Shown here: piece after piece, positions 1-15,414 of the stretch
Position numbering within the stretch: the stretch's first letter is position 1
Layout of the letters: the number at the start of each line of letters is the position of its first letter
DNA from: a virus
IMG/VR virus record: IMGVR_UViG_3300033155_001120
Coordinates: 1 to 51,344 of that record
DNA: 51,344 nucleotides
Strand: one strand, 5' to 3'
Translations under genes and position numbers: made by a program
Notes under the pieces: generated by a model
Database searches by the model: none
Told to the model about the DNA's origin: nothing
What the model saw: the letters and a program-made list of their open reading frames with translations, nothing else

Positions 1-1
1 C

Positions 2-3833: not shown

Positions 3834-3976
3834 ATAACGAGATGTATGTAGTAACAGCAGCGGATGGTAACAGGTTTGTGTCTTTCAAAGATGGTGACCG
3901 ATGGGTAGCTACCAGTAGTGGTAACAAGATTCATCACTTCGTTGAAGGATATATCGTAAGCTGGATAAAGATATAA
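3830..3976 (+). CDS. Small hypothetical protein (48 aa)
   Basis: The frame starts at ATG 3830 in an ATGA overlap and ends at TAA 3974-3976. The product looks like a short beta-hairpin protein (MYVVTAADGNRFVSFKDG, then DRWVA) followed by HHFVEGYIVSWIKI. No family is recognised. The coupling to the previous gene is the main support. Confidence 0.5.
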   Translation: MNNEMYVVTAADGNRFVSFKDGDRWVATSSGNKIHHFVEGYIVSWIKI

Positions 3977-3999
3977 TAACTTAATAAAGGAGAAATAAA

Positions 4000-4218
4000 A
4001 TGTTTAAAGAATACGAAACTGAGATAAATAACTTTATGTATTGGTTCTTTGGTACAGCAGTAGTATTACTATTCTTTGGAGGGCTTGTAGCTTTTGTTGT
4101 GGGTATTGCAGCAGCAGCTGGTAGAGAGTTAGTAGACGAAAATAGTACAGATGAAGAAAAAATGTGGGGTGGCGGTGCTTCCGTGCTCGGAACCATAGCG
4201 GCCTTACTAATAGTATGA
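4000..4218 (+). CDS. Small membrane protein, two predicted spans (72 aa)
   Basis: A strong AAAGGAG site precedes ATG 4000. Residues about 13-39 form one long hydrophobic segment ending in AAAAG, and residues 57-72 form a second. An acidic loop with DENSTDEEK lies between them. It is likely an inner-membrane protein of the infected cell. No lysis or exclusion function can be assigned from sequence alone. Confidence 0.65.
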   Translation: MFKEYETEINNFMYWFFGTAVVLLFFGGLVAFVVGIAAAAGRELVDENSTDEEKMWGGGASVLGTIAALLIV

Positions 4219-4724
4219 TGACAGAAATAGAGAAGTTTATAAAGTGGGTGGATGACCAAGTTCATAACCACGGGCTTATACAGATCAGTGGTGTACACCT
4301 TGATAAAGGCGGCACAGCTATGGACATTCTAAGGTCTAAGTCTAAAGAAGTTATGTTGTATGGAGACGTAGAGCCATCTTTAGAAGACGTTGCTAAATCC
4401 ATGAATGATTTAGCAGACATGGATACCATACATTACAAACCCTATGTGGATAACGTAGACCGAAAAGAATACCAAGGTCTGTGGGAGTTAATGGGTGGAA
4501 GCAAAATGTTGACTGTTGATGAAGTGAAAGAAAAAGCAGAAGTCATGGAGTTACATGGTATGGACTTCTTACATAAAGATTTCACTCCCGGTGCTAGAAG
4601 TAGTGATGTAGAGCACATCCGTTTGATTTTTATTGATGGAGTAGAAACTGTGTTTACACTTGAGGAATTCGAACCTCTTAAAGGCACAAAGTTTAATTTA
4701 CGCCCGAGCACAGACCATTCCTGA
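4215..4724 (+). CDS. Hypothetical protein (169 aa)
   Basis: The open frame begins at 4164, but the tandem ATGATG at 4215 overlaps the membrane-protein stop and is preferred. The N-terminal half reads as a helical, acidic domain and the C-terminal half as beta-rich (HIRLIFIDGVETVFTLEEFE). No catalytic motif is recognised. Confidence 0.6.
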   Translation: MMTEIEKFIKWVDDQVHNHGLIQISGVHLDKGGTAMDILRSKSKEVMLYGDVEPSLEDVAKSMNDLADMDTIHYKPYVDNVDRKEYQGLWELMGGSKMLTVDEVKEKAEVMELHGMDFLHKDFTPGARSSDVEHIRLIFIDGVETVFTLEEFEPLKGTKFNLRPSTDHS

Positions 4725-4960
4725 TGTGCACTTGGTGTGATAAATTTTCCAAGAGAAACTTTGAAAATAAGTATTTTGGATTTTCTAGAGCACGTTGGTT
4801 AAGTTTCTATGGGGAGAGATGGCTCCTATGGAGACCAAGGAGCAAATATAAGAATGGTTTCCTAATATATGGTCGAAGTGAACAACATGAAGCCAGACGT
4901 ACTCTACGTGGGGGTTGTATGAGAAAGGGGAATGGTATATTTGGGAATGACAGAGAGTAA
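4724..4960 (+). CDS. Small basic hypothetical protein (78 aa)
   Basis: It starts in a TGATG overlap and ends in a TAATG overlap with the release-factor-like gene. It is unusually basic and aromatic for this block (RWLSFYGERWLLWRPRSK) and opens with a CTWC pair. The composition could suit nucleic-acid binding, but there is no family match. Confidence 0.5.
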   Translation: MCTWCDKFSKRNFENKYFGFSRARWLSFYGERWLLWRPRSKYKNGFLIYGRSEQHEARRTLRGGCMRKGNGIFGNDRE

Positions 4961-5355
4961 TGGAAGAACTACATCTAACAAAGAAAGATTTCCGACTGGA
5001 GTGGTTCTCTGGAACAGGTGGTGGGGGTCAATATCGTAATAAGCATCCAAATTGTTGTAGGATTACTCATATAGAAACGGGGTTAATGGCCACCGGCCAA
5101 AGTAACCGTGAGAGGCCTGCTAACCAGAAAGAAGCCTTTAATAAACTAGCCAGACTTATACTTGCATATTATGAGGCACCTCCTGAAGCTCGACGTACCC
5201 TTGCCCCTACTATAAGAGACTACCATGGTGGGAGGAACGAGGTAAAAGATAAAGCGTCCGGATTCAAACAAACTTATAAAAAAGTCGTGACAGGGGGTCA
5301 CATAGATGATATGATAGATGCTCGAAAAAAGGCTTTAGGAGAAAATAATGAATAG
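4960..5355 (+). CDS. Lone GGQ (class I release factor catalytic) domain protein
   Basis: Residues 11-60 carry the catalytic core of bacterial release factors: F-R-L-E-W-F-S-G-T-G then GGGQYRNK, with the GGQ at 22-24, followed by THIETGLMATGQSNRERPANQKEAF, matching the H-x-P/E-T-G and E-R-x-x-x-N-x-x-x-A pattern. The family triggers hydrolysis of peptidyl-tRNA on the ribosome. At 131 residues it lacks the codon-recognition and superfamily domains of RF1/RF2, so it is closer in layout to ArfB/YaeJ or PrfH-type factors. The C-terminus is not strongly poly-basic like ArfB, though Lys-rich. A ribosome-rescue or translation-shutoff role is plausible. Confidence 0.85.
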   Translation: MEELHLTKKDFRLEWFSGTGGGGQYRNKHPNCCRITHIETGLMATGQSNRERPANQKEAFNKLARLILAYYEAPPEARRTLAPTIRDYHGGRNEVKDKASGFKQTYKKVVTGGHIDDMIDARKKALGENNE

Positions 5356-5815
5356 GGGAGATTGTGCTAAACTTGTTGTAGGGTGTACGTTAGTGGCGGC
5401 AGACGGAGAGAGAATCTTCGGAGCCAACTGGTGTGCTAACCCACAAGAGGTGTGCCCTAGAGAACCCGGCGAAGACTACACAAAGTGCACGACTATTTGT
5501 CAGCAGTTAGGTCATGCTGAAGAAGTAGCTCTTAAAGAGGCTGGTAACAAAGCTAAGGGTGCCCGAGCCATTTTGGAGGGTCACACATATGCTTGTAGAG
5601 ATTGCCAAGAGGCTTTGTTTTCTGCTGGCGTTGTAAGTTTGGAGATAAAGCACCCTAAGTATCAACCTGTGGACTTTGAAACGAGTCCATGTTCTGTTTG
5701 TGGAAAAGAAACACCTAATGTATTTAATATAAGTTTAAAGGCTGTACCAGTTTGTGAAAGATGTGCTGATTCGATATCTCTTCAGCAGGTAAACTACGTA
5801 CTACAAAATAAATAA
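5348..5815 (+). CDS. Cytidine/deoxycytidylate deaminase-like protein with C-terminal zinc ribbon
   Basis: HAE at 56-58 and the paired Cys of YACRDCQEALFSAGV (C83, C86) form the zinc site and proton-shuttle Glu of the cytidine deaminase fold. The C-terminal 45 residues add CSVCG (C115, C118) and CERC (C136, C139), a separate zinc ribbon. The nucleotide or nucleic-acid substrate is not clear, since the region before HAE is unusual and Cys-rich. It overlaps the release-factor-like gene by 8 bases. Confidence 0.75.
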   Translation: MNRGDCAKLVVGCTLVAADGERIFGANWCANPQEVCPREPGEDYTKCTTICQQLGHAEEVALKEAGNKAKGARAILEGHTYACRDCQEALFSAGVVSLEIKHPKYQPVDFETSPCSVCGKETPNVFNISLKAVPVCERCADSISLQQVNYVLQNK

Positions 5816-5826
5816 AGGAGAATAAT

Positions 5827-6117
5827 ATGAAAGCTATATATGAGTTTTATTGGGACTGTGGGAGAATGGGAGACCTAACTGGATTGTTTATTGCTAACAC
5901 ATCAGATATTGATAAGATCATAGGCGAAGAAATTTATTTTGGTGAAGTGTTAGGTAAACATTCAGAAATCTATGGTGACCTAGAAGAAAAAGACTTAACT
6001 GTTAAGTCTAAAGATCAAGAGTTCATCAAACAGTTTGAGGATATAATGGGTGAGGGTACTATCTCCGGCTATAACCCCTTAAACTATCACCATGAAGATG
6101 AGAGAGTAGGAGAATAA
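5827..6117 (+). CDS. Conserved-looking phage protein of unknown function (96 aa)
   Basis: An AAAGGAGAATA site precedes ATG 5827. The protein reads IYEFYWDCGRMGDLTGLFIA then IYFGEVLGKHSEIYGDLEEKD, a pattern I associate with uncharacterised phage proteins. The C-terminal third is acidic and His-rich. No catalytic role is known to me. Confidence 0.6.
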   Translation: MKAIYEFYWDCGRMGDLTGLFIANTSDIDKIIGEEIYFGEVLGKHSEIYGDLEEKDLTVKSKDQEFIKQFEDIMGEGTISGYNPLNYHHEDERVGE

Positions 6118-6118
6118 T

Positions 6119-6607
6119 ATGAGTACACAAGATGTCCCGGGTCATGGGAGTGCGAAAAGTGACGTGCTAGGTATGGGCGTTTGGGGTGAACACGATGATG
6201 GAAGTTTGTTATTCGTCGAGTCCACTGAAGGTGGTCGAGTTATTTATTCGATCTTTGATATGGCACAAAACCCTATTACTGAGTACCGTGATGCTATGCC
6301 TGAAAAAGGCTTCAAGCAAACGTTCTCTTATGGGAGCAAGAATGCTAAAGTAGACAGTGGTTGGGTTTTTCATGACAAGACACCTTTCCCTTGGGATAAG
6401 ATTATGTCTGTGGGTGGAAAAGATGGCATGCGCTTCGCTTCAGCAGAAGATCAACTAAACGCTGCCCAACGGTTGGCTAAATCGATGGAGATGCGTGGCT
6501 CCACTTTTGATGGGGATAGGTATGCCCATTTAAGAGAGAATGTTGGACGTAAAGGTAAAACTATTATTGACAAAATCCAACGAGCTGTTAGTGAGCTGAG
6601 AAACTAA
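6119..6607 (+). CDS. Hypothetical protein (162 aa)
   Basis: The start is one base after the preceding stop. The protein is mixed alpha/beta with an aromatic segment (KTPFPWDKIM) and a basic C-terminal helix. Nothing in it allows a function to be named. Confidence 0.65.
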   Translation: MSTQDVPGHGSAKSDVLGMGVWGEHDDGSLLFVESTEGGRVIYSIFDMAQNPITEYRDAMPEKGFKQTFSYGSKNAKVDSGWVFHDKTPFPWDKIMSVGGKDGMRFASAEDQLNAAQRLAKSMEMRGSTFDGDRYAHLRENVGRKGKTIIDKIQRAVSELRN

Positions 6608-6608
6608 G

Positions 6609-6917
6609 ATGCAGGAAGCCATATCAGAAGATGGTAAAGCTGAAGGTGTTATACGTACGGACATGCACTGTCATGATTGTAACAAAACCTTCTATGCATC
6701 TATAGATTTTGATATCGAAGGTAACCATACTATTATTTGTCCATATTGTGGTCACCAACACTGCCGTGTTATCGAAAACGGACAAGTGACGGGCGAACGG
6801 TGGGACAGTAAGTGGGGGGATAGTATTGATAGAACAGAGAGAGTTTGGAGTCATCAGTCACTAAAGATGGAGACATCTTCTGCCGCTATGCTACTTCGTA
6901 ATAAGTGGATAAAATAA
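6609..6917 (+). CDS. Small zinc-ribbon protein (102 aa)
   Basis: CHDC near residue 21 and CPYCG near residue 44, about 20 residues apart, make a classic four-Cys zinc ribbon. This is followed by a basic, helical C-terminal tail. Similar ribbons occur in phage nucleic-acid-binding proteins. The gene is packed one base after its neighbour. Confidence 0.6.
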   Translation: MQEAISEDGKAEGVIRTDMHCHDCNKTFYASIDFDIEGNHTIICPYCGHQHCRVIENGQVTGERWDSKWGDSIDRTERVWSHQSLKMETSSAAMLLRNKWIK

Positions 6918-6918
6918 G

Positions 6919-7575
6919 ATGGCTGCTGGTACAGGCATATCAATTTCTAATGGTGGTAATGGTAGTATAACTATTGGGCAGGGTGGTCATATTACTGTGA
7001 GCAACTATACTTCTACCTCCGCAACTGCTACAACCGGTTGGTATAATACATCTACTACTGGAGGTAGTGGTCTAACAGTATCTGATTTTCAAGATGTTAT
7101 AAAACGTGACCCCACTTATGTGGATGGTGATGTAAAAGTTAAACCTAACTCTGAGCTACATTTACCAGATGGTAGTGTTCTCAAAGTAGATAGTTTTGGT
7201 AACTTTAAAGTACTCGATGATAAAGCCATTGTTACCCACAAGGGGAATAATACAAGAGAGTTTAATAAGTTTATTAATGCCAGCGATTTACTAGAGGCAT
7301 TTATAAAAGATCTAGGCGATCTCGGTGTTAAGCAGCACGAAGTTCTGGACGTACCAATTGAGATGTTTATTAATTGGTTAATATTTAAAGCCGCTGAGGA
7401 GGATGGTGATGATGCACCTACGGATGTACCGTTGTTAGAATCATCTGTAACTCCACACAAGCATCCAAAGTGTTTGTGTTGTGGTAGGTTTATTAAAAAG
7501 AAGCTGGTGGAGCACAAAATACACTTTTGTAATCCTAAACACCATGAACGTTATTTAGAGAGGATAAGTATGTGA
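6919..7575 (+). CDS. Gly/Ser/Thr-rich protein with C-terminal zinc knuckle (218 aa)
   Basis: Residues 1-55 are low-complexity Gly/Ser/Thr. The middle (VKVKPNSELHLPDGSVLKVD) looks like a short beta-repeat. The C-terminal 30 residues hold CLCCG, then a Cys and His (HFCNPKHHERY), a likely zinc site. The mixed make-up suggests a virion or accessory protein but is not diagnostic. It has an ATGA-type overlap with the next gene. Confidence 0.55.
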   Translation: MAAGTGISISNGGNGSITIGQGGHITVSNYTSTSATATTGWYNTSTTGGSGLTVSDFQDVIKRDPTYVDGDVKVKPNSELHLPDGSVLKVDSFGNFKVLDDKAIVTHKGNNTREFNKFINASDLLEAFIKDLGDLGVKQHEVLDVPIEMFINWLIFKAAEEDGDDAPTDVPLLESSVTPHKHPKCLCCGRFIKKKLVEHKIHFCNPKHHERYLERISM

Positions 7576-7901
7576 ACACATTTGATATAGATATAATTGC
7601 TGGTAGAGGTAGACAGGAAAGAGGTAAGGTATGTTTCCCTGATCGTGGGGATGAAGTTACCGAGGACAGCATAATTGTAATACCTCATGGTGGCGAAGCC
7701 TATCATATCCCGGGAATGAAATGTAAGGCTATCATTACCGAGATAGGAAACAGACTATGTCACTTGGCAATTGTCACCAGAGAGTTTGGTAAGGTAATGG
7801 TTAAGATGCCCAACGCTCTGGAAGAACTGAAAGACGTGGATCACGTCTGGATCAGATGTGGTGATGCCGGTCAGGGTATTGTTGCGGAGGTAAAAGGATA
7901 A
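7572..7901 (+). CDS. Lone PEP-utilising enzyme mobile (swivelling phosphohistidine) domain
   Basis: The C-terminal two-thirds match the swivel domain of pyruvate phosphate dikinase, PEP synthase and enzyme I. KAIITEIGNRLCHLAIVTRE (51-70) places His64 where the phosphorylated His lies in T-x-GG-x-x-S-H-x-A-I-V-A-R-E, and the end (WIRCGDAGQGIVAEV) matches the V-x-V-D-x-x-x-G-x-V finish. No PEP-binding or nucleotide-binding domain is present. It could serve as a phosphocarrier or decoy for a host kinase, but the role is unknown. Confidence 0.7.
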   Translation: MNTFDIDIIAGRGRQERGKVCFPDRGDEVTEDSIIVIPHGGEAYHIPGMKCKAIITEIGNRLCHLAIVTREFGKVMVKMPNALEELKDVDHVWIRCGDAGQGIVAEVKG

Positions 7902-8128
7902 TGAAAAAACTTTTATTAATTGTACCCCTAATGTTATTGGGTTGTGCAGGTGAGGATAGAGAAGAAGTTAAAAAGATTCAAAAAGCTATTGTAGAAGCAG
8001 CGCCTATAGCAGATACTTCGTATGACAGATTTAAAGAAGAGTCGGTAGCTTGTATAAACCTAGGCGGAGTACCCATTAGATCAGCGTGGGATGGGCGCAT
8101 GAAAGATTGTAAGTTCCCACCAAAATAA
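7901..8128 (+). CDS. Small lipoprotein (75 aa)
   Basis: The N-terminus is a type II signal peptide: MKK, a hydrophobic stretch and lipobox LLGC with Cys15. GED after the Cys gives Asp/Glu near +2/+3, which may favour inner-membrane retention. Mature residues are helical, then a two-Cys segment (CINLGG...KDCKF). Phage lipoproteins often act in superinfection exclusion, but nothing here proves that. Confidence 0.65.
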   Translation: MKKLLLIVPLMLLGCAGEDREEVKKIQKAIVEAAPIADTSYDRFKEESVACINLGGVPIRSAWDGRMKDCKFPPK

Positions 8129-8141
8129 AACGGAGAGAAGA

Positions 8142-8822
8142 ATGAGATCATTGTACCATAAACATTATGAGATGAACCCTGTCGGGCGTGACTATGTCAT
8201 GGGCGATCTTCATGGTGAGTATGATAAAATGTTTGAGTTCTTAGATGATATGGGATTCGACTTCGAGAAGGATCGCTTATTTTCCGTTGGTGATATTATA
8301 GACCGTGGGGAGAAGAGTTTAGAATGCTTGAAGCTAATCAGAGAGCCTTGGTTCCATGCTGTACAAGGTAATCATGAAGACATGATGCTAAATTCCGTGT
8401 TAGATGGCATGGACGGAGAGATGTGGTTAGCTAACGGAGGAATGTGGGCAGTGGATGTTCTTCCTGATACACTTTGGGAGCTATGTAACGAAGTTAGGGA
8501 GCTACCCTATGCTATGACAGTCAAAACAGCTAACGGCAAGGTAGGTATATGTCATGCAGAACCACCTACACGAAGATGGTCGGATGTAGAACACCCCACT
8601 ATATATGATGTCAATGTAATGCTGTGGTCTAGAAAGCTGGCAAAGATGGCTAGAAGTACTGGCCAGAGTCGTCATAATATTATAGTAGCTGGAGTGGATA
8701 ATGTCTACTGCGGTCATAGTGTTTTTAAAGAAGTAACACGCTTAGGAAATATTATATTTTTGGATACCGGGAGTGGATTTGATTTTGGTAGACTATCAAT
8801 AATGGAAATTTATAATGCCTAA
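8142..8822 (+). CDS. PP1/PP2A-like serine/threonine protein phosphatase
   Basis: The metallophosphatase signature is complete: GDLHG (21-25), GDIIDRG (50-56), GNHED (76-80), then His138 in GICHAE and His192 in VYCGHS. At 226 residues it matches the size of lambda-type phosphatases and E. coli PrpA/PrpB. It would dephosphorylate Ser/Thr or His residues, or related phosphoesters, using two metals. A GGAGAGAA site precedes the start. Confidence 0.9.
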   Translation: MRSLYHKHYEMNPVGRDYVMGDLHGEYDKMFEFLDDMGFDFEKDRLFSVGDIIDRGEKSLECLKLIREPWFHAVQGNHEDMMLNSVLDGMDGEMWLANGGMWAVDVLPDTLWELCNEVRELPYAMTVKTANGKVGICHAEPPTRRWSDVEHPTIYDVNVMLWSRKLAKMARSTGQSRHNIIVAGVDNVYCGHSVFKEVTRLGNIIFLDTGSGFDFGRLSIMEIYNA

Positions 8823-9024
8823 TATTATAGTTACAGTTATGACGAATGATCCTCTAGGCCGCTGGAAGAAATGGGAAGAGGGCATCCTTTTAGAAAACGA
8901 CTTTGAAAAGTATGACTACTTTGTAGAACTAAAACGCAAAGCAGGTTCTAAAATGGCTAGAAATTATTATTTTTATAAAGAGGAGGTATCGCTACATGAA
9001 CACATTACTACTGAACAGGATTAA
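8815..9024 (+). CDS. Small hypothetical protein (69 aa)
   Basis: It overlaps the phosphatase by 8 bases. It is charged and aromatic (EKYDYFVELKRKAG; ARNYYFYKEE), with no family match. Its 3' end contains the GAGGAGG ribosome-binding site of the next gene. Confidence 0.55.
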   Translation: MPNIIVTVMTNDPLGRWKKWEEGILLENDFEKYDYFVELKRKAGSKMARNYYFYKEEVSLHEHITTEQD

Positions 9025-9379
9025 AACCCCAGATGGTACCATTCTTACTAGCCGTACTAGACATGATTATGTAACTCATAAGGATGCAAATGGCTTAGAA
9101 TATATGGTGGATGGCGGGATAGACTACCAACGCTGTAATCTAAATAAGGATGCCCCACATGAAGATTTAAGTATTTACTCTGATGATGCCCATGAAAAAA
9201 TTCGTGCCGGATTCGAGTGGGGTGGTAGAGGCATAAACGGTGACCAGCCTCTTACCTACAAACCTCTTATGGCTATGAGTGATGACCACATTAAAGCTAT
9301 ACTGAAAACTCAAAACCATATTTCTATGATTGTGCGCGAGATATTTGCGAATGAGTTGAGATACAGGGAAGGCTTATGA
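8996..9379 (+). CDS. Conserved-looking phage protein of unknown function (127 aa)
   Basis: ATG 8996 follows a strong GAGGAGGT site. The N-terminal half (SRTRHDYVTHKDANGLEYMV then DGGIDYQR) recalls a group of uncharacterised T4-like and other phage proteins. The C-terminal half is helical. There is no catalytic assignment. Confidence 0.6.
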   Translation: MNTLLLNRIKTPDGTILTSRTRHDYVTHKDANGLEYMVDGGIDYQRCNLNKDAPHEDLSIYSDDAHEKIRAGFEWGGRGINGDQPLTYKPLMAMSDDHIKAILKTQNHISMIVREIFANELRYREGL

Positions 9380-9780
9380 TTAAGACACCACTATTAGCAG
9401 TTGATATTATCATTAAGATGCCTAATGAACCTTATAGTCCACTCGTGTTTATCGAGAGGAAGAACCCACCTCATGGTTGGGCATTCCCCGGGGGGTTCGT
9501 GGACATTGGCGAGTCTTTAGAGCAAGCGGCAATCCGTGAGGCTAAAGAGGAAACATCATTAGATATAGTTCTCAAAGGACTGTTAGGTTGTTACTCCGAT
9601 CCCGGTCGTGATCCGCGCATGCCCGTTGTCAGCGTAGTGTTTATGGCTGAGGCGGGGGGTACTCCAGAGGCTGCAGATGATGCCACCAACATATTCCTTG
9701 GTGACATGTTATCTTATCCGACAAATTTAGCTTTTGACCATAGTAAAATTTTACAAGATTACTTAAAGGCTACGAAATGA
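9376..9780 (+). CDS. Nudix hydrolase, ADP-ribose pyrophosphatase-like
   Basis: The Nudix box spans 40-62: G40, E46, then REAKEET at 54-60 with metal-binding Glu55, Glu58 and Glu59. The usual late Gly is Ser61. Downstream YSDPGRDPRMPVVSVVFMA is typical of bacterial ADP-ribose or NAD-linked Nudix enzymes. The protein would hydrolyse a nucleoside diphosphate linked to another moiety. The same early region encodes a NADAR protein, so both could touch ADP-ribose metabolism, which is inference. Confidence 0.88.
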   Translation: MIKTPLLAVDIIIKMPNEPYSPLVFIERKNPPHGWAFPGGFVDIGESLEQAAIREAKEETSLDIVLKGLLGCYSDPGRDPRMPVVSVVFMAEAGGTPEAADDATNIFLGDMLSYPTNLAFDHSKILQDYLKATK

Positions 9781-10148
9781 AATACCTAGTTATATTAATA
9801 TTATTATCGGTCTCTTTTAATGCTCAAGCATTAGAAAAGGACTACAATGTGCCATGGTGTAAAAGCCAAAACGGCCTATGGGAAGGGTCAGCCATCACTG
9901 TACGTGACCAGTACACTGGGAAGGTTGAGGGCTATATTGATTGTCTAACAGCCACACACGCCATTGAGGCTGATTTTGATACCAAGTGGAAGGAGTCTGT
10001 AGCTCAAGCACTCTGGTACGCTCATAACACAGGCAAACGAGCCGGTATCCTACTAATAACTAAACCTAGCAGCTCTGGAGAGAAAAAACTTCGTGATTTA
10101 GTGAATGGCCTAGGATTACCTATTGACATTTGGACTGTTCCGAAATGA
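9777..10148 (+). CDS. Exported protein with possible PD-(D/E)xK-like core (123 aa)
   Basis: Residues 1-18 form a signal peptide with AxA-type cleavage (NAQA then LEKDY). The mature part, CLTATHAIEADFDTKWKESV then QALWYAHNTGKRAGILLIT, resembles small uncharacterised proteins in which an E-x-D-x-x-x-K-W motif suggests a degenerate nuclease fold. Two Cys residues could form a disulphide in the periplasm. The fold call is tentative. Confidence 0.5.
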   Translation: MKYLVILILLSVSFNAQALEKDYNVPWCKSQNGLWEGSAITVRDQYTGKVEGYIDCLTATHAIEADFDTKWKESVAQALWYAHNTGKRAGILLITKPSSSGEKKLRDLVNGLGLPIDIWTVPK

Positions 10149-10315
10149 GTACCCATGATTTCAGTGAAGTAAGTTTTAGAGTTCATTTCAACAACATAAA
10201 CGAGGCTATGTCAGCAGGGTTTAGTAAGAATGAGATAACTAAAGTTACAGAGTCATGGACAGACCCTAAGACTTGGGAGAAATGCGGTAGAGTAACATAT
10301 TATGTTGATATTTAA
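10145..10315 (+). CDS. Small hypothetical protein (56 aa)
   Basis: ATG 10145 overlaps the preceding TGA as ATGA. This is the last gene of the early block before the RNA region. It is a small mixed alpha/beta protein with no recognised domain. Confidence 0.55.
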   Translation: MSTHDFSEVSFRVHFNNINEAMSAGFSKNEITKVTESWTDPKTWEKCGRVTYYVDI

Positions 10316-10324
10316 GAAAAGCCC

Positions 10325-10352
10325 TTGACACATCCTAAAAAGAGAGTATGAT
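10325..10352 (+). promoter_or_regulatory. Sigma70 promoter of tRNA unit 1
   Basis: TTGACA (10325-10330), a 16-base spacer and TATGAT (10347-10352) give a near-consensus promoter. Transcription would start near 10359, one base before the leader ATG at 10360, so the leader mRNA is essentially leaderless. Confidence 0.8.
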
Positions 10353-10359
10353 ACGCAGA

Positions 10360-10446
10360 ATGAAAACTTATTCACAACAGCCCAGCTTCTTTCAACCGTG
10401 CCCATTCTGGCTCGGTGCTCGTCTGTGTGAGGAAAAAAGTTATTAG
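10360..10446 (+). CDS. tRNA-unit leader peptide 1 (28 aa), putative attenuator sensor
   Basis: The ORF starts one base after the predicted transcription start and has no Shine-Dalgarno site. It has three parts: a head (MKTYS), a sensor block at residues 6-17 (QQPSFFQPCPFW) and a tail ending ARLCEEKSY. Eleven of the 12 sensor residues are Gln, Pro, Phe, Cys or Trp, exactly the charged amino acids of the downstream Gln, Trp, Pro, Pro, Cys and Phe tRNAs. Synonyms are sampled: CAA and CAG; CCC, CCG and CCA; TTC and TTT. A second leader at 11585 has the same length and tail. The likely role is ribosome stalling that controls the following terminator, not the peptide itself. Confidence 0.75.
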   Translation: MKTYSQQPSFFQPCPFWLGARLCEEKSY

Positions 10447-10508
10447 TTAGTTAAGTTTTAAATAACAGAATTCACAGGCGAGATACTCATAAGGTATCTC
10501 GCCTTTTT
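10420..10508 (+). promoter_or_regulatory. Attenuator of tRNA unit 1: antiterminator arm and terminator
   Basis: CGTCTGTG (10420-10427, leader codons 21-23) can pair over 8 positions with CACAGGCG (10473-10480), with one T-G pair. That distal arm overlaps the first four bases of the terminator stem (10477-10486 with 10494-10503), so the two hairpins exclude each other. A further hairpin, CCGTGCC with GGCTCGG, sits just upstream within the sensor codons. A ribosome stalled in the sensor block would leave CGTCTGTG free to form the antiterminator. This is inferred from sequence only. Confidence 0.65.
10477..10508 (+). terminator. Strong intrinsic terminator before tRNA unit 1
   Basis: A perfect 10-bp stem, GGCGAGATAC with GTATCTCGCC, closes a 7-base loop and is followed by TTTTT. 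It lies between the promoter and the first tRNA, so the tRNAs depend on read-through or on processing of a read-through transcript. Confidence 0.85.
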
Positions 10509-10514
10509 ACGTTT

Positions 10515-10588
10515 AGGGGATTGGTGTAATGGTAACACCTCAGGTTTTGAGCCTGATGTTGGGAGTTCGAGCCTCTCATCCTCTGCCA
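10515..10588 (+). tRNA. tRNA-Gln (TTG)
   Basis: Acceptor AGGGGAT pairs with ATCCTCT, CCA is encoded, and the anticodon loop TTTTGAG is closed by TCAGG/CCTGA. First tRNA of unit 1. Gln appears three times in leader peptide 1. Confidence 0.88.
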
Positions 10589-10595
10589 GTTTAAT

Positions 10596-10668
10596 GGGAA
10601 AGTCAGCCTAGGGGCGGCAAGGTCTCCAAAGCCGAAGCGGGTGGGTTCGAATCCTACCTTTCTCGCCA
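10596..10668 (+). tRNA. tRNA-Trp (CCA), weak anticodon stem
   Basis: Acceptor GGGAAAG pairs with CTTTCTC, the T-arm is GTGGG-TTCGAAT-CCTAC, and CCA is encoded. The anticodon loop CTCCAAA gives CCA, but only three of five stem pairs form (the outer A-A and A-G do not). It may be decaying or rely on modified geometry. Trp occurs once in leader 1. Confidence 0.7.
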
Positions 10669-10675
10669 GTTTTAT

Positions 10676-10751
10676 CAGAGTGTAGCTGAGTTTGGTTTAG
10701 CACCGCGTTTGGGGCGCGGGGACGTAGGTTCGAATCCTACTATTCTGACCA
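10676..10751 (+). tRNA. tRNA-Pro (TGG)
   Basis: Acceptor CAGAGTG/TATTCTG, anticodon stem CCGCG/CGCGG with loop TTTGGGG, T-arm GTAGG-TTCGAAT-CCTAC, encoded CCA. G37 is as expected for Pro. Confidence 0.9.
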
Positions 10752-10758
10752 GTTTAAT

Positions 10759-10836
10759 CTGAGTGTAGCTCAGTTTGTGTAGAGTACTCGCCTTGGACGC
10801 GAGAGGTCGTAGGTTCGATTCCTACCACTCAGACCA
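10759..10836 (+). tRNA. Second tRNA-Pro-like gene (TGG)
   Basis: Acceptor CTGAGTG/CACTCAG is perfect, T-arm GTAGG-TTCGATT-CCTAC, encoded CCA. The anticodon stem CTCGC/GCGAG closes loop CTTGGAC, so the anticodon reads TGG, but position 37 is A and not the G usual in Pro tRNAs. It is probably a diverged duplicate of the previous gene. Confidence 0.78.
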
Positions 10837-10904
10837 GTTTAGACTATCTTTTTGATTTTAAGGTGATATACTGATGAGTCACTAAAGACACCGAGGAGGT
10901 AGTC

Positions 10905-11297
10905 ATGAGTAAGAAGAAATCAGAACAATTAGGTATGAATCCTAGCACCGCTTCACATAGGTTAGTTAAAGATGTGTTGTTTAAACTCCTTATCGAAGCA
11001 GGTCATACTTGTTTTCAATGTGGAGAGGAATTGACGAGGGATACTTTTAGTATTGAGCACATGGAACCTTGGTTGGACAGCGAAGACCCTCTGGGACTAT
11101 ACTTTAACTTAGAAAATATAGCTTTCAGTCATAAGTCTTGTAACTATGCAGCTAGTAGAACGCCGTATAAAAAATACTTTTCCGAAACAGAATTACAAGA
11201 AGCAAGCAACCGATGGCAAAAAGAATACAAAGAAAGGCAAGGTGTAGAAAAAAGGAAAGAAGTACGGAAAGCACAATATTTAAGAACAGGAAAATAA
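10905..11297 (+). CDS. HNH endonuclease, homing-type, inside tRNA unit 1
   Basis: The HNH fold is visible: CFQCG (C36, C39), IEHMEPW with His52, YFNLENIAFSHKSCN with Asn68 and His76, and Cys79. Basic tails flank it. Such free-standing HNH enzymes cut DNA and spread by homing. A GGAGG site precedes ATG 10905, and an extended -10 (TGATATACT) lies upstream. Its stop codon is one base before tRNA-Cys, which shows insertion between tRNA genes. Confidence 0.85.
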   Translation: MSKKKSEQLGMNPSTASHRLVKDVLFKLLIEAGHTCFQCGEELTRDTFSIEHMEPWLDSEDPLGLYFNLENIAFSHKSCNYAASRTPYKKYFSETELQEASNRWQKEYKERQGVEKRKEVRKAQYLRTGK

Positions 11298-11298
11298 T

Positions 11299-11374
11299 GT
11301 ACCGGTGGCTCGAAAAGATAGGCAGCGGCCTGCAAAGTCGTTTTATGGGGTGGCGGAATCCCCTCGGTACTCCA
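11299..11374 (+). tRNA. tRNA-Cys (GCA) with atypical T-arm
   Basis: Acceptor GTACCGG/TCGGTAC, discriminator T (the Cys identity base), encoded CCA. Anticodon stem GCGGC/GTCGT closes CTGCAAA. The T-arm is GGGGT-GGCGGAA-TCCCC, without the TTCRA loop, so it is non-canonical. It begins one base after the HNH stop. Confidence 0.72.
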
Positions 11375-11381
11375 ATTTATT

Positions 11382-11458
11382 GCCCCTGTAGCTGAGATAG
11401 TTACAAGCGTCCGGTTGAAGCCCGGAAGACGAAGGTGCGAGCACTTCCGGGGGCACCA
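11382..11458 (+). tRNA. tRNA-Phe (GAA)
   Basis: Acceptor GCCCCTG/CGGGGGC, anticodon stem TCCGG/CCGGA with loop TTGAAGC, discriminator A, encoded CCA. The T-loop reads TGCGAGC, slightly off consensus. Confidence 0.85.
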
Positions 11459-11463: not shown

Positions 11464-11530
11464 TGCGTAGTTTAAGAGGAAGAACGCACCTATAAGAGGG
11501 TGAAGTGTGGGATTCGAGTTCCCTCCGCAA
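11464..11530 (+). tRNA. Degenerate or minimal tRNA-like gene
   Basis: TGCGTAG pairs with CTCCGCA at six of seven positions. A TTCGAGT T-loop and a CACC/GGTG arm are present, but the arm has an 8-base loop (TATAAGAG), the element is only about 67 bases long, and CCA is not encoded (ACTT follows). It sits at the end of unit 1 after the usual ATTTA spacer. The anticodon cannot be assigned safely. Confidence 0.4.
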
Positions 11531-11549
11531 CTTAATTTCAAAAAGGGAC

Positions 11550-11577
11550 TTGACACAATCAAAAAGAAGAGTATAAT
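11550..11577 (+). promoter_or_regulatory. Sigma70 promoter of tRNA unit 2
   Basis: TTGACA (11550-11555), a 16-base spacer and TATAAT (11572-11577) match consensus. The predicted start at 11584 is one base before the leader ATG (11585), as in unit 1. Confidence 0.85.
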
Positions 11578-11584
11578 CACCCCC

Positions 11585-11671
11585 ATGAACACATTTAACC
11601 TCCTATCAGAACTGAGTTATTTATCTGAATCCTTGGATTCGGCTCATCTGTGTGAGGAAAAAAGTATTTAG
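11585..11671 (+). CDS. tRNA-unit leader peptide 2 (28 aa), putative attenuator sensor
   Basis: It has the same length and layout as leader 1: a head (MNTFN), a sensor block at residues 6-19 (LLSELSYLSESLDS) and a tail ending AHLCEEKSI. Thirteen of the 14 sensor residues are Leu, Ser, Glu or Tyr, the amino acids matching the Leu, Leu, Leu, Glu, Glu, Tyr, Ser and Ser anticodons downstream. The five Leu codons are all different (CTC, CTA, CTG, TTA, TTG) and so are the five Ser codons (TCA, AGT, TCT, TCC, TCG). This looks like deliberate sampling of isoacceptors. The start is leaderless by promoter position. Confidence 0.78.
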   Translation: MNTFNLLSELSYLSESLDSAHLCEEKSI

Positions 11672-11733
11672 TTAATTAATTTTTCAAAGTAATAACACAG
11701 ATGGGCTACCCGAATAAGGTAGCCCATTTTTTT
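11645..11733 (+). promoter_or_regulatory. Attenuator of tRNA unit 2: antiterminator arm and terminator
   Basis: CATCTGTGT (11645-11653) pairs perfectly with ACACAGATG (11695-11703), which overlaps the first three bases of the terminator stem. Relative to unit 1 the second pair changes from G-C to A-T on both strands, a compensatory change that supports the pairing. A CTGAATC/GATTCGG hairpin lies just upstream in the sensor codons, at the same place as the one in unit 1. The linker TGTGTGAGGAAAAAAGT is conserved in both. Confidence 0.68.
11701..11733 (+). terminator. Strong intrinsic terminator before tRNA unit 2
   Basis: A 10-bp perfect stem, ATGGGCTACC with GGTAGCCCAT, closes a 7-base loop (CGAATAA) and runs into seven T residues. 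It separates the leader ORF from the unit 2 genes. Confidence 0.88.
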
Positions 11734-11750
11734 ATGTTTGGGAGTATAGA

Positions 11751-11951
11751 ATGAAATATTATTTTAGAGGTCGGCTGATACTAGAGTACGACATAGAACG
11801 TAAAGATTTAAGAGTCACTGAGGACTTTAATATCTGTAAGTTTATACCAGAGGACTACCTGCTGATAGCAGAGTTCATGGACAAAATCTACAGACTACAA
11901 ATGGGTATGTCAGTGACAGATGAGGAGCTAAAAGATATAGAAGTAGATTAG
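11751..11951 (+). CDS. Small hypothetical protein (66 aa) at the head of tRNA unit 2
   Basis: A GGGAG site precedes ATG 11751. The protein is acidic and helical after a short beta start (YYFRGRLILEYDIERKDL), with no recognised family. It lies directly behind the unit 2 terminator and ends three bases before tRNA-Leu, so its expression would follow the same read-through as the tRNAs. Confidence 0.6.
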   Translation: MKYYFRGRLILEYDIERKDLRVTEDFNICKFIPEDYLLIAEFMDKIYRLQMGMSVTDEELKDIEVD

Positions 11952-11954
11952 TAT

Positions 11955-12038
11955 GGGTCGGTGGTGGAAGTGGTATACACAGTGGGTTCAAACCCCGCGC
12001 CGAAAGGATTGAGGGTTCGAGTCCCTCCTGACCTACCA
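11955..12038 (+). tRNA. tRNA-Leu (CAA)
   Basis: Class II tRNA of 84 bases. Acceptor GGGTCGG/CTGACCT, anticodon stem GTGGG/CCCGC with loop TTCAAAC, long variable arm, T-arm GAGGG-TTCGAGT-CCCTC, encoded CCA. Confidence 0.9.
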
Positions 12039-12045
12039 GTTTAAT

Positions 12046-12129
12046 GTCGGGGTGGTGGAAGGGTATACACAGGGGATTTAAAATCCCCCGCCTTTGGGAT
12101 TGAGAGTTCGAATCTCTCCTCCGATACCA
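12046..12129 (+). tRNA. tRNA-Leu (TAA)
   Basis: Class II tRNA of 84 bases. Acceptor GTCGGGG/CTCCGAT, anticodon stem GGGGA/TCCCC with loop TTTAAAA, T-arm GAGAG-TTCGAAT-CTCTC, encoded CCA. Confidence 0.9.
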
Positions 12130-12143
12130 AATTTAAGTTTTAA

Positions 12144-12227
12144 GCCGTGGTGGTGGAATGGTATACACATTGGTTTTAGAAACCAACGCCGCAAGGATTG
12201 AGGGTTCGACTCCCTCCTACGGTACCA
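12144..12227 (+). tRNA. tRNA-Leu (TAG)
   Basis: Class II tRNA of 84 bases. Acceptor GCCGTGG/CTACGGT, anticodon stem TTGGT/ACCAA with loop TTTAGAA, T-arm GAGGG-TTCGACT-CCCTC, encoded CCA. The three Leu genes share D-arm and variable-arm sequence and look like a duplicated family. Confidence 0.9.
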
Positions 12228-12233
12228 GTTTAG

Positions 12234-12262
12234 TGCGGAGATTAGAGGCCTTATTCTCCGCA
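12234..12262 (+). ncRNA. 29-base acceptor-stem-like hairpin between tRNAs
   Basis: TGCGGAGA pairs perfectly with TCTCCGCA around a 13-base loop. It is flanked by the same GTTTA spacers as the tRNAs. The stem resembles the acceptor of the degenerate gene at 11464 (CTCCGCA on the 3' side). It may be a tRNA gene with its body deleted, or a processing hairpin. Confidence 0.5.
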
Positions 12263-12272
12263 AAAGTTTAAT

Positions 12273-12357
12273 GTTGCGATATACAAGTGGCTAAAGTAAC
12301 TAGGTTTTCACCCTAGTCCGTACCGGTTCACGGGTTCGAATCCCGTTCGCAATACCA
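12273..12357 (+). tRNA. tRNA with Glu anticodon (TTC) on a class II body
   Basis: Acceptor GTTGCGA/TCGCAAT, discriminator A, encoded CCA, T-arm ACGGG-TTCGAAT-CCCGT. A six-pair ACTAGG/CCTAGT stem closes TTTTCAC, so the anticodon is TTC. The variable region is 13 bases with a CCG/CGG stem, giving 85 bases in all. The D-arm AAGTGGCTAAAG is close to bacterial tRNA-Tyr. Glu is present in leader 2, in agreement with a Glu role, but the body is unusual. Confidence 0.8.
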
Positions 12358-12364
12358 GTTTTAC

Positions 12365-12451
12365 GACGTGATATACAAGTGGCTAAAGTAGCTAGGTTCT
12401 CAACCTAGTCCTCACGAGGGTTCATGGGTTCGAATCCCATTCATGTCACCA
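12365..12451 (+). tRNA. tRNA with Glu anticodon (CTC) on a class II body
   Basis: Sister of the preceding gene: acceptor GACGTGA/TCATGTC, discriminator A, stem CTAGG/CCTAG with loop TTCTCAA, 15-base variable arm, T-arm ATGGG-TTCGAAT-CCCAT, encoded CCA. Confidence 0.8.
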
Positions 12452-12458
12452 AGTTTAA

Positions 12459-12552
12459 GGTCAGAAGCTCGATATTGGTTTAAGCGGGGGCGGTCTGTAA
12501 AACCGTACAGGGGCTAGACCCCGTGATGGTTCGATTCCATCTCTGACCACCA
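12459..12552 (+). tRNA. tRNA-Tyr (GTA)
   Basis: Acceptor GGTCAGA/TCTGACC, anticodon stem GCGGT/ACCGT with loop CTGTAAA, long variable arm with GGGG/CCCC, T-arm GATGG-TTCGATT-CCATC, discriminator A, encoded CCA. At 94 bases it is longer than the usual 85. Confidence 0.88.
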
Positions 12553-12554
12553 AT

Positions 12555-12583
12555 TTGACAAGATAAGGATTACGTGGTAGGTT
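12555..12583 (+). promoter_or_regulatory. Promoter for the second HNH gene
   Basis: TTGACA (12555-12560), a 17-base spacer and TAGGTT with an upstream TGG (extended -10). The predicted start near 12590 is one base before the HNH ATG. An inverted repeat AAGGATTA/TAATCCTT spans the spacer and start region and could be an operator. Confidence 0.5.
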
Positions 12584-12590
12584 AATCCTT

Positions 12591-12968
12591 ATGATAAAAG
12601 AATGCAAAAAACACGGCTCTGTAGAGCATTATGAACGAACTGATAATAACGGGTTCCGCTGTAAGGTATGTAATACGGAGAGGGTTAAGGAACATAGGCG
12701 AAAGAAAAAACAGTGGTGCTTAGACTATCTAGGTGGGGAGTGCCAAGTTTGCGGGTACAAAAAATGTAGGGCTGCACTAACATTTCATCATAGAGACCCG
12801 AGTGAGAAAGAATTCTCGTTTAACCGGTACCAGAAAACCAGCTATAAAAAGTTGGCTATAGAATTAGAAAAGTGCGACCTCCTATGTTCTAATTGTCATA
12901 TGGAAGCGCACTGGCCGGATGAAAAAGTTTTGGAAAAATCCGCTAGGTTGGCTGGCGATACGGTTTGA
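12591..12968 (+). CDS. HNH endonuclease whose 3' end runs into tRNA-Ser
   Basis: CQVCG (C51, C54), TFHHRDP with His66 and His67, and CDLLCSNCHMEAH (Cys99, Cys102, His103, His107) define a zinc-HNH nuclease. An N-terminal CKVC (C24, C27) adds another Cys pair. The last 11 codons and the stop are made from the first 37 bases of the tRNA-Ser gene. No Shine-Dalgarno is visible, which fits a leaderless start. Confidence 0.82.
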   Translation: MIKECKKHGSVEHYERTDNNGFRCKVCNTERVKEHRRKKKQWCLDYLGGECQVCGYKKCRAALTFHHRDPSEKEFSFNRYQKTSYKKLAIELEKCDLLCSNCHMEAHWPDEKVLEKSARLAGDTV

Positions 12969-13020
12969 ACCCGTAGGTGACCATTGTGTGTTAGGGGTTC
13001 GACTCCTCATTTTTCCGCCA
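12932..13020 (+). tRNA. tRNA-Ser (TGA)
   Basis: Class II tRNA of 89 bases. Acceptor GGAAAAA/TTTTTCC, discriminator G (Ser type), anticodon stem TACGG/CCGTA with loop TTTGAAC, long variable arm, encoded CCA. Its 5' half is also the 3' end of the HNH gene. Confidence 0.88.
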
Positions 13021-13026
13021 AGTTAT

Positions 13027-13116
13027 GGTAGATTGGCCGAGTGGTTGAAAGCAGCGGGTTGCTAACTCGTACAGGCATTGTGTCCTGCGTCAGTTCGAAT
13101 CTGACATCTACCTCCA
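13027..13116 (+). tRNA. tRNA-Ser (GCT)
   Basis: Class II tRNA of 90 bases. Acceptor GGTAGAT/ATCTACC, anticodon stem GCGGG/CTCGT with loop TTGCTAA, T-arm GTCAG-TTCGAAT-CTGAC, encoded CCA. The discriminator is T and not the usual G. It is the last tRNA of unit 2. Confidence 0.88.
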
Positions 13117-13714: not shown

Positions 13715-13883
13715 ACAACTAAGAGCTATACTGGATATTCTTGAGGAGTCAGATCAAGAAGAAGTGAAAATGTATTACGAAAGCCCGGACAAAGAATCAA
13801 TACCTGTAGTGTGTACTATAAAAAATGGTGGAGTAATAAAGGATCAATTAATTTCTTTAGTGTTTTACGAAGAAAAGGCTTGA
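13704..13883 (+). CDS. Small acidic hypothetical protein (59 aa)
   Basis: ATG 13704 lies 11 bases inside the PQ-loop gene. The product is acidic with a helical start (MRTEQLRAILDILEESDQEE) and a beta-like end. Its stop codon overlaps the -35 of the next promoter. No family is recognised. Confidence 0.55.
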   Translation: MRTEQLRAILDILEESDQEEVKMYYESPDKESIPVVCTIKNGGVIKDQLISLVFYEEKA

Positions 13884-13907
13884 CAACCAGTTTAAAGTCA
13901 GTATAAT
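13880..13907 (+). promoter_or_regulatory. Sigma70 promoter of tRNA unit 3
   Basis: TTGACA (13880-13885), 16-base spacer and TATAAT (13902-13907), the same geometry as units 1 and 2. The first ATG downstream (13918) meets a stop after two codons, so no 28-residue leader is present here. Confidence 0.82.
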
Positions 13908-13926
13908 CCGCCCCCAGATGTCGTAA

Positions 13927-13990
13927 AGAAGGCCTCTAACTTATTTGAATACTTGTAGCTATATCTATAAGAGTTTTAGGCCTTCTATTT
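13927..13990 (+). terminator. Hairpin before tRNA unit 3, terminator-like
   Basis: AGAAGGCCT (13927-13935) pairs with AGGCCTTCT (13978-13986) around a 42-base AT-rich loop and is followed by ATTTATTT. The stem and position match the attenuator terminators of units 1 and 2, but the loop is longer and the T-run weaker. Confidence 0.5.
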
Positions 13991-13994
13991 ATTT

Positions 13995-14153: not shown

Positions 14154-14159
14154 GTTTAT

Positions 14160-14297
14160 GGACAAGGTGCATGTACATGCATTTAGTGAGAATTAATACC
14201 TGCTAACCACAGGTCTTAGGCGGGATGGTGATACCATAAGTCCTACACTAAAATATGCTGCTAACATATGTAGGTGAGAACCCTACCTTGTCTACCA
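14160..14297 (+). ncRNA. 138-base tRNA-like structured RNA A
   Basis: GGACAAG pairs with CTTGTCT and is followed by A and CCA, like a tRNA acceptor. Inside lie a perfect TGCATGTACATGCA palindrome, a TTTAGTG/CACTAAA stem enclosing ACCTG/CAGGT and ATGGT/ACCAT hairpins, then ATATG-CTGCTAA-CATAT (like a Ser GCT anticodon arm) followed at once by GTAGG-TGAGAAC-CCTAC. There is no variable region and no TTCGA loop. It is bounded by the standard GTTTA spacers. T4 also encodes two stable non-tRNA RNAs in its tRNA cluster, of unknown function. Confidence 0.6.
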
Positions 14298-14352
14298 GTT
14301 TAACCAAGTAGTACTTTTATAAACATAGTAATTATTCTTAGGAGAATATAAT

Positions 14353-14451: not shown

Positions 14452-14478
14452 CTAGTCTCCACGACTCAGTAACAGTTT

Positions 14479-14624
14479 AGACAGGTAGTACTAAGACACC
14501 ACTAACGTGGGTCAGCGATTGTACAGGGGAGCCGAACACCAAGGCTCCTCGATCTTGGCGAATCGGTGAAGGTGTAAACCCGGCTAGTGTTATCAAGATG
14601 CAGAGTTAGCGTTCTGCTCTGTCT
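14479..14624 (+). ncRNA. 146-base structured RNA B
   Basis: AGACAG at the 5' end pairs with CTGTCT at the 3' end, after a standard CAGTTTA spacer. Inside are GGAGCC/GGCTCC, CGAT/ATCG and GCAGA/TCTGC hairpins and a GGTGTAAACCC motif recalling the GGTGAGAACCC arm of RNA A. There is no encoded CCA, no anticodon arm I can defend and no ORF of note. I treat it as a stable RNA of unknown function. Confidence 0.5.
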
Positions 14625-14636
14625 ATTATTAATTTC

Positions 14637-14716: not shown

Positions 14717-14866
14717 AAAATAATTCCTTAGTGGGTAGCAGTGACTTGTGAGAGGCTAGGGACAACGTGGGATATGCATAGAGTCTTCCTTGCCCCACCG
14801 GATGAACCATTTAAGAGAGATTAGTCATTTCTTGTTTGTGGGGTTATCTGTTTGGTGGAACAAAAA
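14717..14866 (+). other. Unassigned 150-base stretch within tRNA unit 3
   Basis: No ORF or tRNA is recognised. CCCCAC (about 14793-14798) can pair with GTGGGG downstream, or GTGGG upstream with CCCAC, giving alternative folds. The stretch occupies a slot between two tRNAs and is the size of RNAs A and B, so it may be another structured RNA. Confidence 0.3.
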
Positions 14867-15140: not shown

Positions 15141-15181
15141 GCAGCAAGAGGTTCGGGTTCGTCCCACTCCCTTGTAGCTGC
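15141..15181 (+). ncRNA. 41-base hairpin C
   Basis: GCAGC pairs with GCTGC, followed inward by CAAG/CTTG and a terminal GGG-TTCGT-CCC hairpin. It lies between two tRNA-like genes. No CCA is encoded. Confidence 0.35.
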
Positions 15182-15188
15182 AAACATA

Positions 15189-15308
15189 GGTTGATGGTGA
15201 CTCGTGTAGTTGGAACCATGCAATGGACGGTTTACGCCTTGAGCGAACGTGTCCTCCGTCATTGGGGCATAATGAACACGGTAGGTGAGAACCCTGCACC
15301 GGCCTCCA
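15189..15308 (+). ncRNA. 120-base tRNA-like structured RNA D
   Basis: GGTTGAT pairs with ACCGGCC at six of seven positions (with T-G pairs), followed by T and CCA. The penultimate arm GTAGG-TGAGAAC-CCTGC is almost identical to that of RNA A. A long arm AATGGACGG/CCGTCATT encloses CGC-CTTGA-GCG. There is no clear anticodon. With RNA A it suggests a family of CCA-ended RNAs lacking a normal T-loop. Confidence 0.5.
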
Positions 15309-15313
15309 ATTTA

Positions 15314-15373
15314 TGAACAGGCAACTTCGGTCGGCATGATATCGAAGGGATGAGTCCCGCCCTTACCTGTTCA
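15314..15373 (+). ncRNA. 60-base structured RNA E
   Basis: TGAACAGG pairs perfectly with CCTGTTCA. Inside are CTTCG/CGAAG and AAGGG/CCCTT hairpins. The 3' end reads ACC-T, so CCA is incomplete. It follows the usual ATTTA spacer. It could be a minimal tRNA-like RNA. Confidence 0.45.
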
Positions 15374-15414
15374 CCTATTCCTTACCCTTTCCTAGGGTTA
15401 CTAAAAGATAACAC

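Follow-up and report, generated by a model that had tools for sequence, protein, structure and literature searches.

Leader peptides built from the amino acids of their own tRNA operons point to multi-specific transcription attenuation in phages

The viral record IMGVR_UViG_3300033155_001120 of IMG/VR, analysed here over its positions 1 to 51,344 (51,344 nucleotides, hereafter the window), contains a phage tRNA gene cluster with 17 tRNA calls by ARAGORN. We describe two transcription units of this cluster, both on the plus strand, in which a short leader peptide and a terminator precede a tRNA operon. Unit 1 starts with a promoter (TTGACA-N16-TATGAT, 10325..10352) that agrees with the consensus at 11 of 12 positions, followed by leader peptide 1, MKTYSQQPSFFQPCPFWLGARLCEEKSY, an open reading frame (ORF) of 28 codons at 10360..10446 (ATG at 10360, stop TAG at 10444-10446), and by an intrinsic terminator of 12 bp and -18.8 kcal/mol with TTTT behind it (10476..10504). 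The operon itself consists of tRNA-Gln (TTG, 10515..10588), tRNA-Trp (CCA, 10596..10665), two tRNA-Pro (both TGG, 10676..10751 and 10759..10836), an HNH endonuclease gene (10905..11297; phrog_23251, 2.6e-31), tRNA-Cys (GCA, 11299..11374) and tRNA-Phe (GAA, 11382..11458). A promoter, an ORF near +2, a terminator and this order of genes had been described by an original prediction made from the sequence alone, and they are present as described. Its tRNAs were identified in different ways: the Gln, Phe and both Pro tRNAs are called by ARAGORN, tRNA-Trp is a sub-threshold Rfam match (23.7 vs 29 bits) that was read by hand, and tRNA-Cys, an atypical tRNA with a 7-bp acceptor and a CCA end, was recognized by hand reading alone, as neither ARAGORN nor Rfam calls a tRNA-Cys there.

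The middle of leader 1 is made up almost entirely of residues that these tRNAs decode. Within codons 6-17 (QQPSFFQPCPFW, 10375..10410), 11 of the 12 residues belong to the operon's set {Q,W,P,C,F}, which is the proportion that the original prediction had given, and the match has a p of ~2e-8 after correction for 17 in-leader positions. Among the 53,470 stop-free 12-mers in the six frames of the window, QQPSFFQPCPFW is the sole one of this kind. Besides, the match of leader 1 to its own set is specific to the reading frame (p 7e-9 in frame, 0.2-0.3 in the other frames).

A second unit built in this way, absent from the original prediction, occupies positions 11550-13116. It was found through a second promoter and 18 bp in common with unit 1, so that it forms an independent repeat of the first observation. 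Its promoter (TTGACA-N16-TATAAT, 11550..11577) is a perfect consensus, and it is followed by leader peptide 2, MNTFNLLSELSYLSESLDSAHLCEEKSI (28 codons, 11585..11671), and by an intrinsic terminator of -18.6 kcal/mol (11699..11729). Operon 2 opens with a 66-amino-acid ORF with no assigned function (11751..11951) and continues with tRNA-Leu (CAA, TAA, TAG; 11955..12227), tRNA-Glu (TTC, CTC; 12273..12451), tRNA-Tyr (GTA; 12459..12552), an HNH endonuclease gene (12591..12968; phrog_2255, 3.7e-26) and tRNA-Ser (TGA, GCT; 12932..13116), all of these tRNAs being called by ARAGORN. The regulatory codons 6-17 of leader 2 (LLSELSYLSESL, 11600..11635) are cognate to operon 2 in all 12 positions, every residue coming from {L,E,Y,S} (p ~6e-7; 9e-8 for the in-frame match of the leader). 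This run includes five different Leu codons (CTC, CTA, CTG, TTA and TTG) and four different Ser codons (TCA, AGT, TCT and TCC), with TCG directly after it. Matching each leader to the other operon gave chance values, set 1 being represented by 2 residues in leader 2, and leader 1 having a p of 0.18 in set 2. Unit 2 is the cleanest repeat of the match between leader and tRNAs.

In both units the ATG is located ~8 nt past the -10 box, about at the predicted start site, which in unit 1 lies ~7 nt downstream of the promoter, and the mRNA is thus predicted to be leaderless or nearly so. Folding of unit 1 assigns strand 1 to 10371..10386, which pairs with strand 2 (CTCGTCTGTG, 10418..10427), and strand 2 can alternatively form 10 bp with strand 3 (CACAGGCGAG, 10473..10482). 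The equivalent strands of unit 2 are strand 1 by folding at 11599..11616, strand 2 (GGCTCATCTGTGT, 11641..11653) and strand 3 (ACACAGATGGGCT, 11695..11707), with 13 bp between the last two. To the resulting 2:3 antiterminators, the 12-nt 5' arm of the terminator loses 7 nt in unit 1 and 9 nt in unit 2, and none of 200 shuffles was as good in either case. Prefix folds, computed for the window units, also predict a protector hairpin 1:2 in both. The regulatory codons lie over or just past strand 1, so that a ribosome stalled on them, in unit 1 early in the run, would cover strand 1, with strand 2 remaining available for pairing. According to these folding models, both units are a classical 1:2 / 2:3 / 3:4 arrangement, and the explicit antiterminators competing with both terminators, like the unit of leader 2, extend what the original prediction had contained.

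Based on these features, we consider it very likely that each such tRNA operon is under the control of a multi-specific ribosome-mediated transcription attenuator, a mode of regulation for which theory is available (PMC1183508). The promoter would produce a short, often leaderless mRNA encoding a peptide with a central run of codons that specify the amino acids of the operon's tRNAs, all of them or the majority. As long as charged tRNAs are plentiful, the ribosome would translate the leader to its end, with strand 2 either covered or paired again with strand 1, the 3:4 terminator would form, and the tRNA genes would stay untranscribed. If any one of the cognate charged tRNAs became scarce, the ribosome would stall in the run and mask strand 1, and strand 2 would pair with strand 3, thereby blocking the terminator and allowing transcription of the phage replacement tRNAs. 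Such a device would work as an OR-gate over several amino acids, with negative feedback on the tRNA supply. At the level of sequence, it is backed by the in-frame cognate match, by co-variation between operons and phages, and by terminators with competing antiterminators. The multi-specificity attenuator of the original prediction is accordingly strengthened by the match, the co-variation and the antiterminators, whereas leader translation, stalling, the read-through controlled by it, and the loss of host tRNAs during infection (by host decay or anticodon nucleases) as the signal are inferred.

Since no near relatives of the window phage with the array turned up, arbitrary viral arrays were sampled. 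In three scans of IMG/VR, contigs with a T-run just before a tRNA were screened for short ORFs ahead of the arrays. This yielded leaders such as MKTLNTTNSSTAPVNLGGLLL ahead of Thr, Asn, Pro, Ser and Ser (L095), MKSMVEFVGAVATVVAAEAAEGVDTGHLSLVRIS ahead of Val, Gly, Gly, Asp, three Ala and two Glu (L145/L165), MKTTRIANRARENRITINGNDETGG ahead of Thr, Glu, Ala, Asn, Asp, Asn, Gly, Gly, Arg and Arg (L163), and LPLPYHYQPLPQ ahead of His, Tyr, Pro, Leu, Pro and Gln (L180), as well as leaders in L073, L274 (two), L283 and L295. A 330-kb contig (G024) has four leaders, each fitting its own block: CNSNYFTSSFSN precedes Phe, Asn, Ser and Cys, HVHAAVMVLSSLSWLLEGEGYD precedes His, Leu, Asp, Trp, Gly, Tyr, Glu, Val and Met, DMDMRQVTCAATTIR precedes Met, Thr, Ile, Ala, Asp, Arg and Val, and RRPQPQQPRR precedes Pro, Gln and Arg. 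Three leaders each were found in the cultured Cellulophaga phages phi4:1 and phi17:2, namely QRLHLQELEQP ahead of Pro, Glu, Gln, His, Leu, Leu and Arg, TKTGITVIDKTKGARA ahead of Ala, Lys, Ile, Gly, Met, Asp, Thr, Val and Arg, and NYCTYNNSNWSFSY ahead of Tyr, Ser, Asn, Trp and Phe. The cultured phage phi38:1, of another family than phi4:1, has three different leaders, for example LLHQEPLEQLRLPSR ahead of Pro, Glu, Gln, His, Leu and Arg, and in phi4:1, phi17:2 and phi38:1 the three leaders together span nearly the whole tRNA clusters. Eleven leaders were present in the stretches read of uncultured phages of 634-735 kb, among them IINMIQEQMQQIQNLI ahead of Met and Gln tRNAs and one Ile. Across phages, the leaders are 16-42 codons long and read up to 9 amino acids each. 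A further candidate, MRTTMVHISSFKQQEICSWYRYVENCSSENMVK (L205:228-329), lies ahead of Val, Glu and Pro, with Phe, His, Ser, Ile, Lys, Cys, Trp, Tyr, Gln, Arg and Met further on; past the start region nearly all of its residues fit the union of these tRNAs, which may exceed the operon itself, and the candidate was kept outside the statistics. Overall, the leader's residues change together with the tRNA set, as the original prediction would have it, in unit 2, in phages of other families, and between several operons of the same genome.

These ORFs could alternatively encode microproteins with a function of their own, in which the resemblance to the tRNA set would stem from descent or coincidence, and some of them are indeed annotated as genes, the leaders gp075 of phi4:1 (L330:7990-8109) and gp066 of phi38:1 (L334:1254-1361) being listed as hypothetical proteins. 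The sequences are, on the other hand, unrelated between phages, and the homologous leaders MKLINTSSSSSRLIISKEIRLCV, MKTINNTSKSSSRSSSMSEIRLYS and MKTTIKNTSSRSRSSKSGEVRLYS, all ahead of Arg and Ser tRNAs, keep their composition while the order is scrambled. An order that is shuffled while residue identity tracks the tRNAs would be unexpected for a functional microprotein, and the permutation tests given below contradict this explanation as well, which makes it very improbable. As the hypothetical-protein entries of phi4:1 and phi38:1 illustrate, leaders may sit unrecognized in existing annotations.

The strength of the match was evaluated in two ways, by a residue-blind sample and by a curated set, and the two tests have to be taken together. 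Selection by terminator, antiterminator and ATG ORF, blind to the residues, gave 17 array starts from the three scans. The leader's own tRNA set ranked first in 8 of these 17, and the sum of -log10 p was 50.4, compared with a mean of 19.9 and a maximum of 35.4 in 1,000 permutations of the tRNA sets. For 22 curated leaders, part of which had been chosen by their match, the summed score was 115, a value that 200,000 permutations approached to 69 at most, and the match was confined to frame 0 (mean -log10 p of 5.24, versus 0.65 and 0.75 in the two alternative frames). A permutation p of 5e-6 was obtained for 11 follow-up leaders, some ORFs of which were read with the hypothesis in mind. Every amino acid of the array is contained in 20 of the 22 leaders, the exceptions being phi4:1-B, which is without M, and the row of phi10:1, which in this count rests on wrong coordinates and whose match is weak in the frame comparison (p 3e-3); the correct phi10:1 ORF, MLKKWSYSCFSYSFKNGEVIL, lies ahead of Tyr and Phe and contains Y and F. 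Short peptides combined with several choices of ORF and array boundary do leave room for chance or a search artefact. Considering the blind permutation test, the frame control and the several units per genome, all of which contradict it, we regard such an origin as extremely improbable.

The structural features recur along with the residue match. In most leaders, 7-16 nt of upstream sequence pair with the 5' arm of the terminator, a mutually exclusive antiterminator being present in both window units and most relatives, and in 10 of 20 leaders, both window units among them, no shuffle matched the upstream pairing. When nascent RNA was folded with a ribosome set on the run, the terminator arm paired upstream more than in shuffles (combined p 1e-11). 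The uniform antiterminator finder used here overlooked pairings visible by eye in phi38:1-A and did not cover phi38:1-C. A stalled ribosome might also act through another output, by blocking access of Rho or RNase or by pausing the polymerase, the hairpin then being a processing site instead of a regulated terminator. This would suit the heavy processing of tRNA operons and the weak antiterminators of some leaders (phi4:1-A/B and L295). It agrees poorly with the T-runs that follow the hairpins, together with a competing upstream strand, in most leaders, and with the spacing of 18-31 nt between stop codon and terminator hairpin in 20 of 21 leaders, and we judge it unlikely.

Several observations weigh against control by attenuation, in addition to the partly match-guided choice of leaders noted above. 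No close relatives keeping the array were found, since searches with the major capsid protein (MCP), metallophosphatase, ribonucleotide reductase (RNR) and HNH led to contigs without a tRNA array, and many tRNA-rich phages have no such leader. Leader 1 carries a non-cognate S, its 3' third holds L, E and S codons that are non-cognate to operon 1, and the second leader of the 330-kb contig (G024-2) holds non-cognate A and S. The antiterminator is weak in about a quarter of the relatives and did not exceed shuffles in phi4:1-A, phi4:1-B, L180, L274-1 and L295. Agreement between the codon boxes of the leaders and the isoacceptors of the arrays is only partial: phi4:1-C has tRNA-Ser GCT only, yet its leader uses TCC and TCG. 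Matching at the level of isoacceptors was for this reason rejected as a rule.

As to distribution, no leader was found in T4, T5, crAss001, Pontus, Moby and KoPa-4, which indicates that the design is widespread and not universal; in BDU-MI-1 the parts read, with one tRNA, held no leader. The leaders gave no meaningful match to named phages by tblastn or blastn, and exact and relaxed searches with the shared tail CTGTGTGAGGAAAAAAGT revealed nothing convincing elsewhere. Empty sequence searches are expected if residue composition alone is conserved.

With regard to the signal, phage tRNAs have been reported to counter host defences that cleave tRNAs (PMC10264068, PMC11555353). Given that the output is tRNA, a loss of tRNA makes the most sense as the trigger of the switch, and both host anticodon nucleases and host tRNA decay are possible candidates. 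The same attenuator could instead respond to amino acid starvation or general demand, that is, to the level of aminoacylation, and tune the tRNA supply to need, which we consider possible but somewhat doubtful. A ribosome senses charged tRNA regardless of the cause of its scarcity, and the sets, with up to 9 amino acids per leader and, in phi4:1 and G024, almost the complete range of amino acids, exceed the target of any single known anticodon nuclease. Extra tRNA genes would, however, be of no help with an amino acid limiting, while making tRNA fits a loss of tRNA and the role of phage tRNAs against tRNA-cleaving defences.

The arrays have additional features. Each of the two operons described here has one HNH gene inside its tRNA array, and an HNH gene was also seen by eye in the L145 array. 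A third promoter (TTGACA..TATAAT, window 13883-13994) precedes tRNA-Lys, Lys, ... Met, Ala and Ala; this operon has no cognate leader, contains ATG-TCG-TAA and a long hairpin formed by GAAGGCCT..AGGCCTTC according to folding, and seems to be under different control. Between the called tRNAs of the window, tRNA-like ends occur at 11464-11534, 12234-12262, 14157-14300, 14460-14632, 14717-14860 and 15142-15375. These stretches have acceptor-like arms, some with CCA, are not recognized by ARAGORN or Rfam, and resemble the tRNA-like stable RNAs annotated in T5. The array of the 330-kb phage (L060:6265-6541, 8180-8475; L169:18241-18851) contains a tRNA-Asn apparently split by a group I intron and an RNase P RNA-like stretch, both identified by eye, and a tmRNA adjoining a group I intron according to Rfam. 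A relative of the window phage (L005:3827-4247) gave a permuted tmRNA call, with no tRNAs in the stretch read.

The units share with the attenuators of amino-acid biosynthetic operons (trp, his, phe, leu, thr and ilv) a promoter, a short leader ORF containing runs of regulatory codons, the alternative hairpins 1:2 / 2:3 / 3:4, and an intrinsic terminator before the first gene. They differ from them in regulating phage tRNA genes instead of biosynthetic enzymes, in reading up to 9 amino acids per leader, in an often leaderless mRNA, and in matching no Rfam leader family: the amino-acid operon leaders of Rfam (Trp, His, Leu, Phe, Thr and similar) gave no match in the window and loci at E up to 1 or at the gathering threshold, where the only matches were to tRNA, tmRNA and group I intron, apart from chance ones. 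In the E. coli pheST operon, encoding Phe-tRNA synthetase, the gene under control likewise influences the supply of charged tRNA, and regulation is exerted by ribosomes that stall at Phe codons. That leader senses a single amino acid and controls a cellular synthetase gene, whereas in the phages the tRNA genes themselves would be regulated. The ilvGMEDA leader senses several amino acids (Ile, Val and Leu); these three amino acids are related, are sensed upstream of biosynthesis genes, and do not make up an arbitrary set that mirrors an array. T-box riboswitches also respond to uncharged tRNA and control termination, but they bind the tRNA directly and without translation, and a T-box was rejected here as Rfam gave no T-box match in the window or loci. 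The anti-defence tRNA arrays of phages, in which phage tRNAs replace host tRNAs destroyed by defence, share the tRNA array with the present units; the studies describing them treat tRNA function and resistance, and not conditional transcription through cognate leader peptides (PMC10264068, PMC11555353). In line with the original prediction, which knew of no precedent, no earlier description was found in the literature searched on leader peptides, attenuation and phage tRNAs, the coverage of which is thin for subscription papers and preprints, so that this absence is not proof. Attenuation of this type is known, and what appears to be new is its application to tRNA genes with arbitrary sets of several amino acids.

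Why phages carry tRNAs, and when these are expressed, is a long-standing question. We hypothesize, with moderate confidence, that the tRNA complements of diverse phages, the largest known ones included, are divided into operons, each equipped with its own multi-codon translational sensor for the codons that its tRNAs decode. Between them, these sensors would survey the greater part of the genetic code and make up, one operon at a time, for whichever tRNAs have been removed by the host or by its defence systems. Most of the leaders lack annotation, a survey of them requires nothing beyond sequence data, and cultured phages (Cellulophaga phi4:1, phi17:2, phi38:1 and phi40:1) are available for tests. 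If the proposed mechanism is true, phages would gauge the charged tRNA in the infected cell and make their own tRNAs only when one is missing. This would provide a direct and testable link to tRNA-cleaving immunity, turn each leader into a readable record of what its operon senses, and offer ready-made multi-input tRNA sensors.

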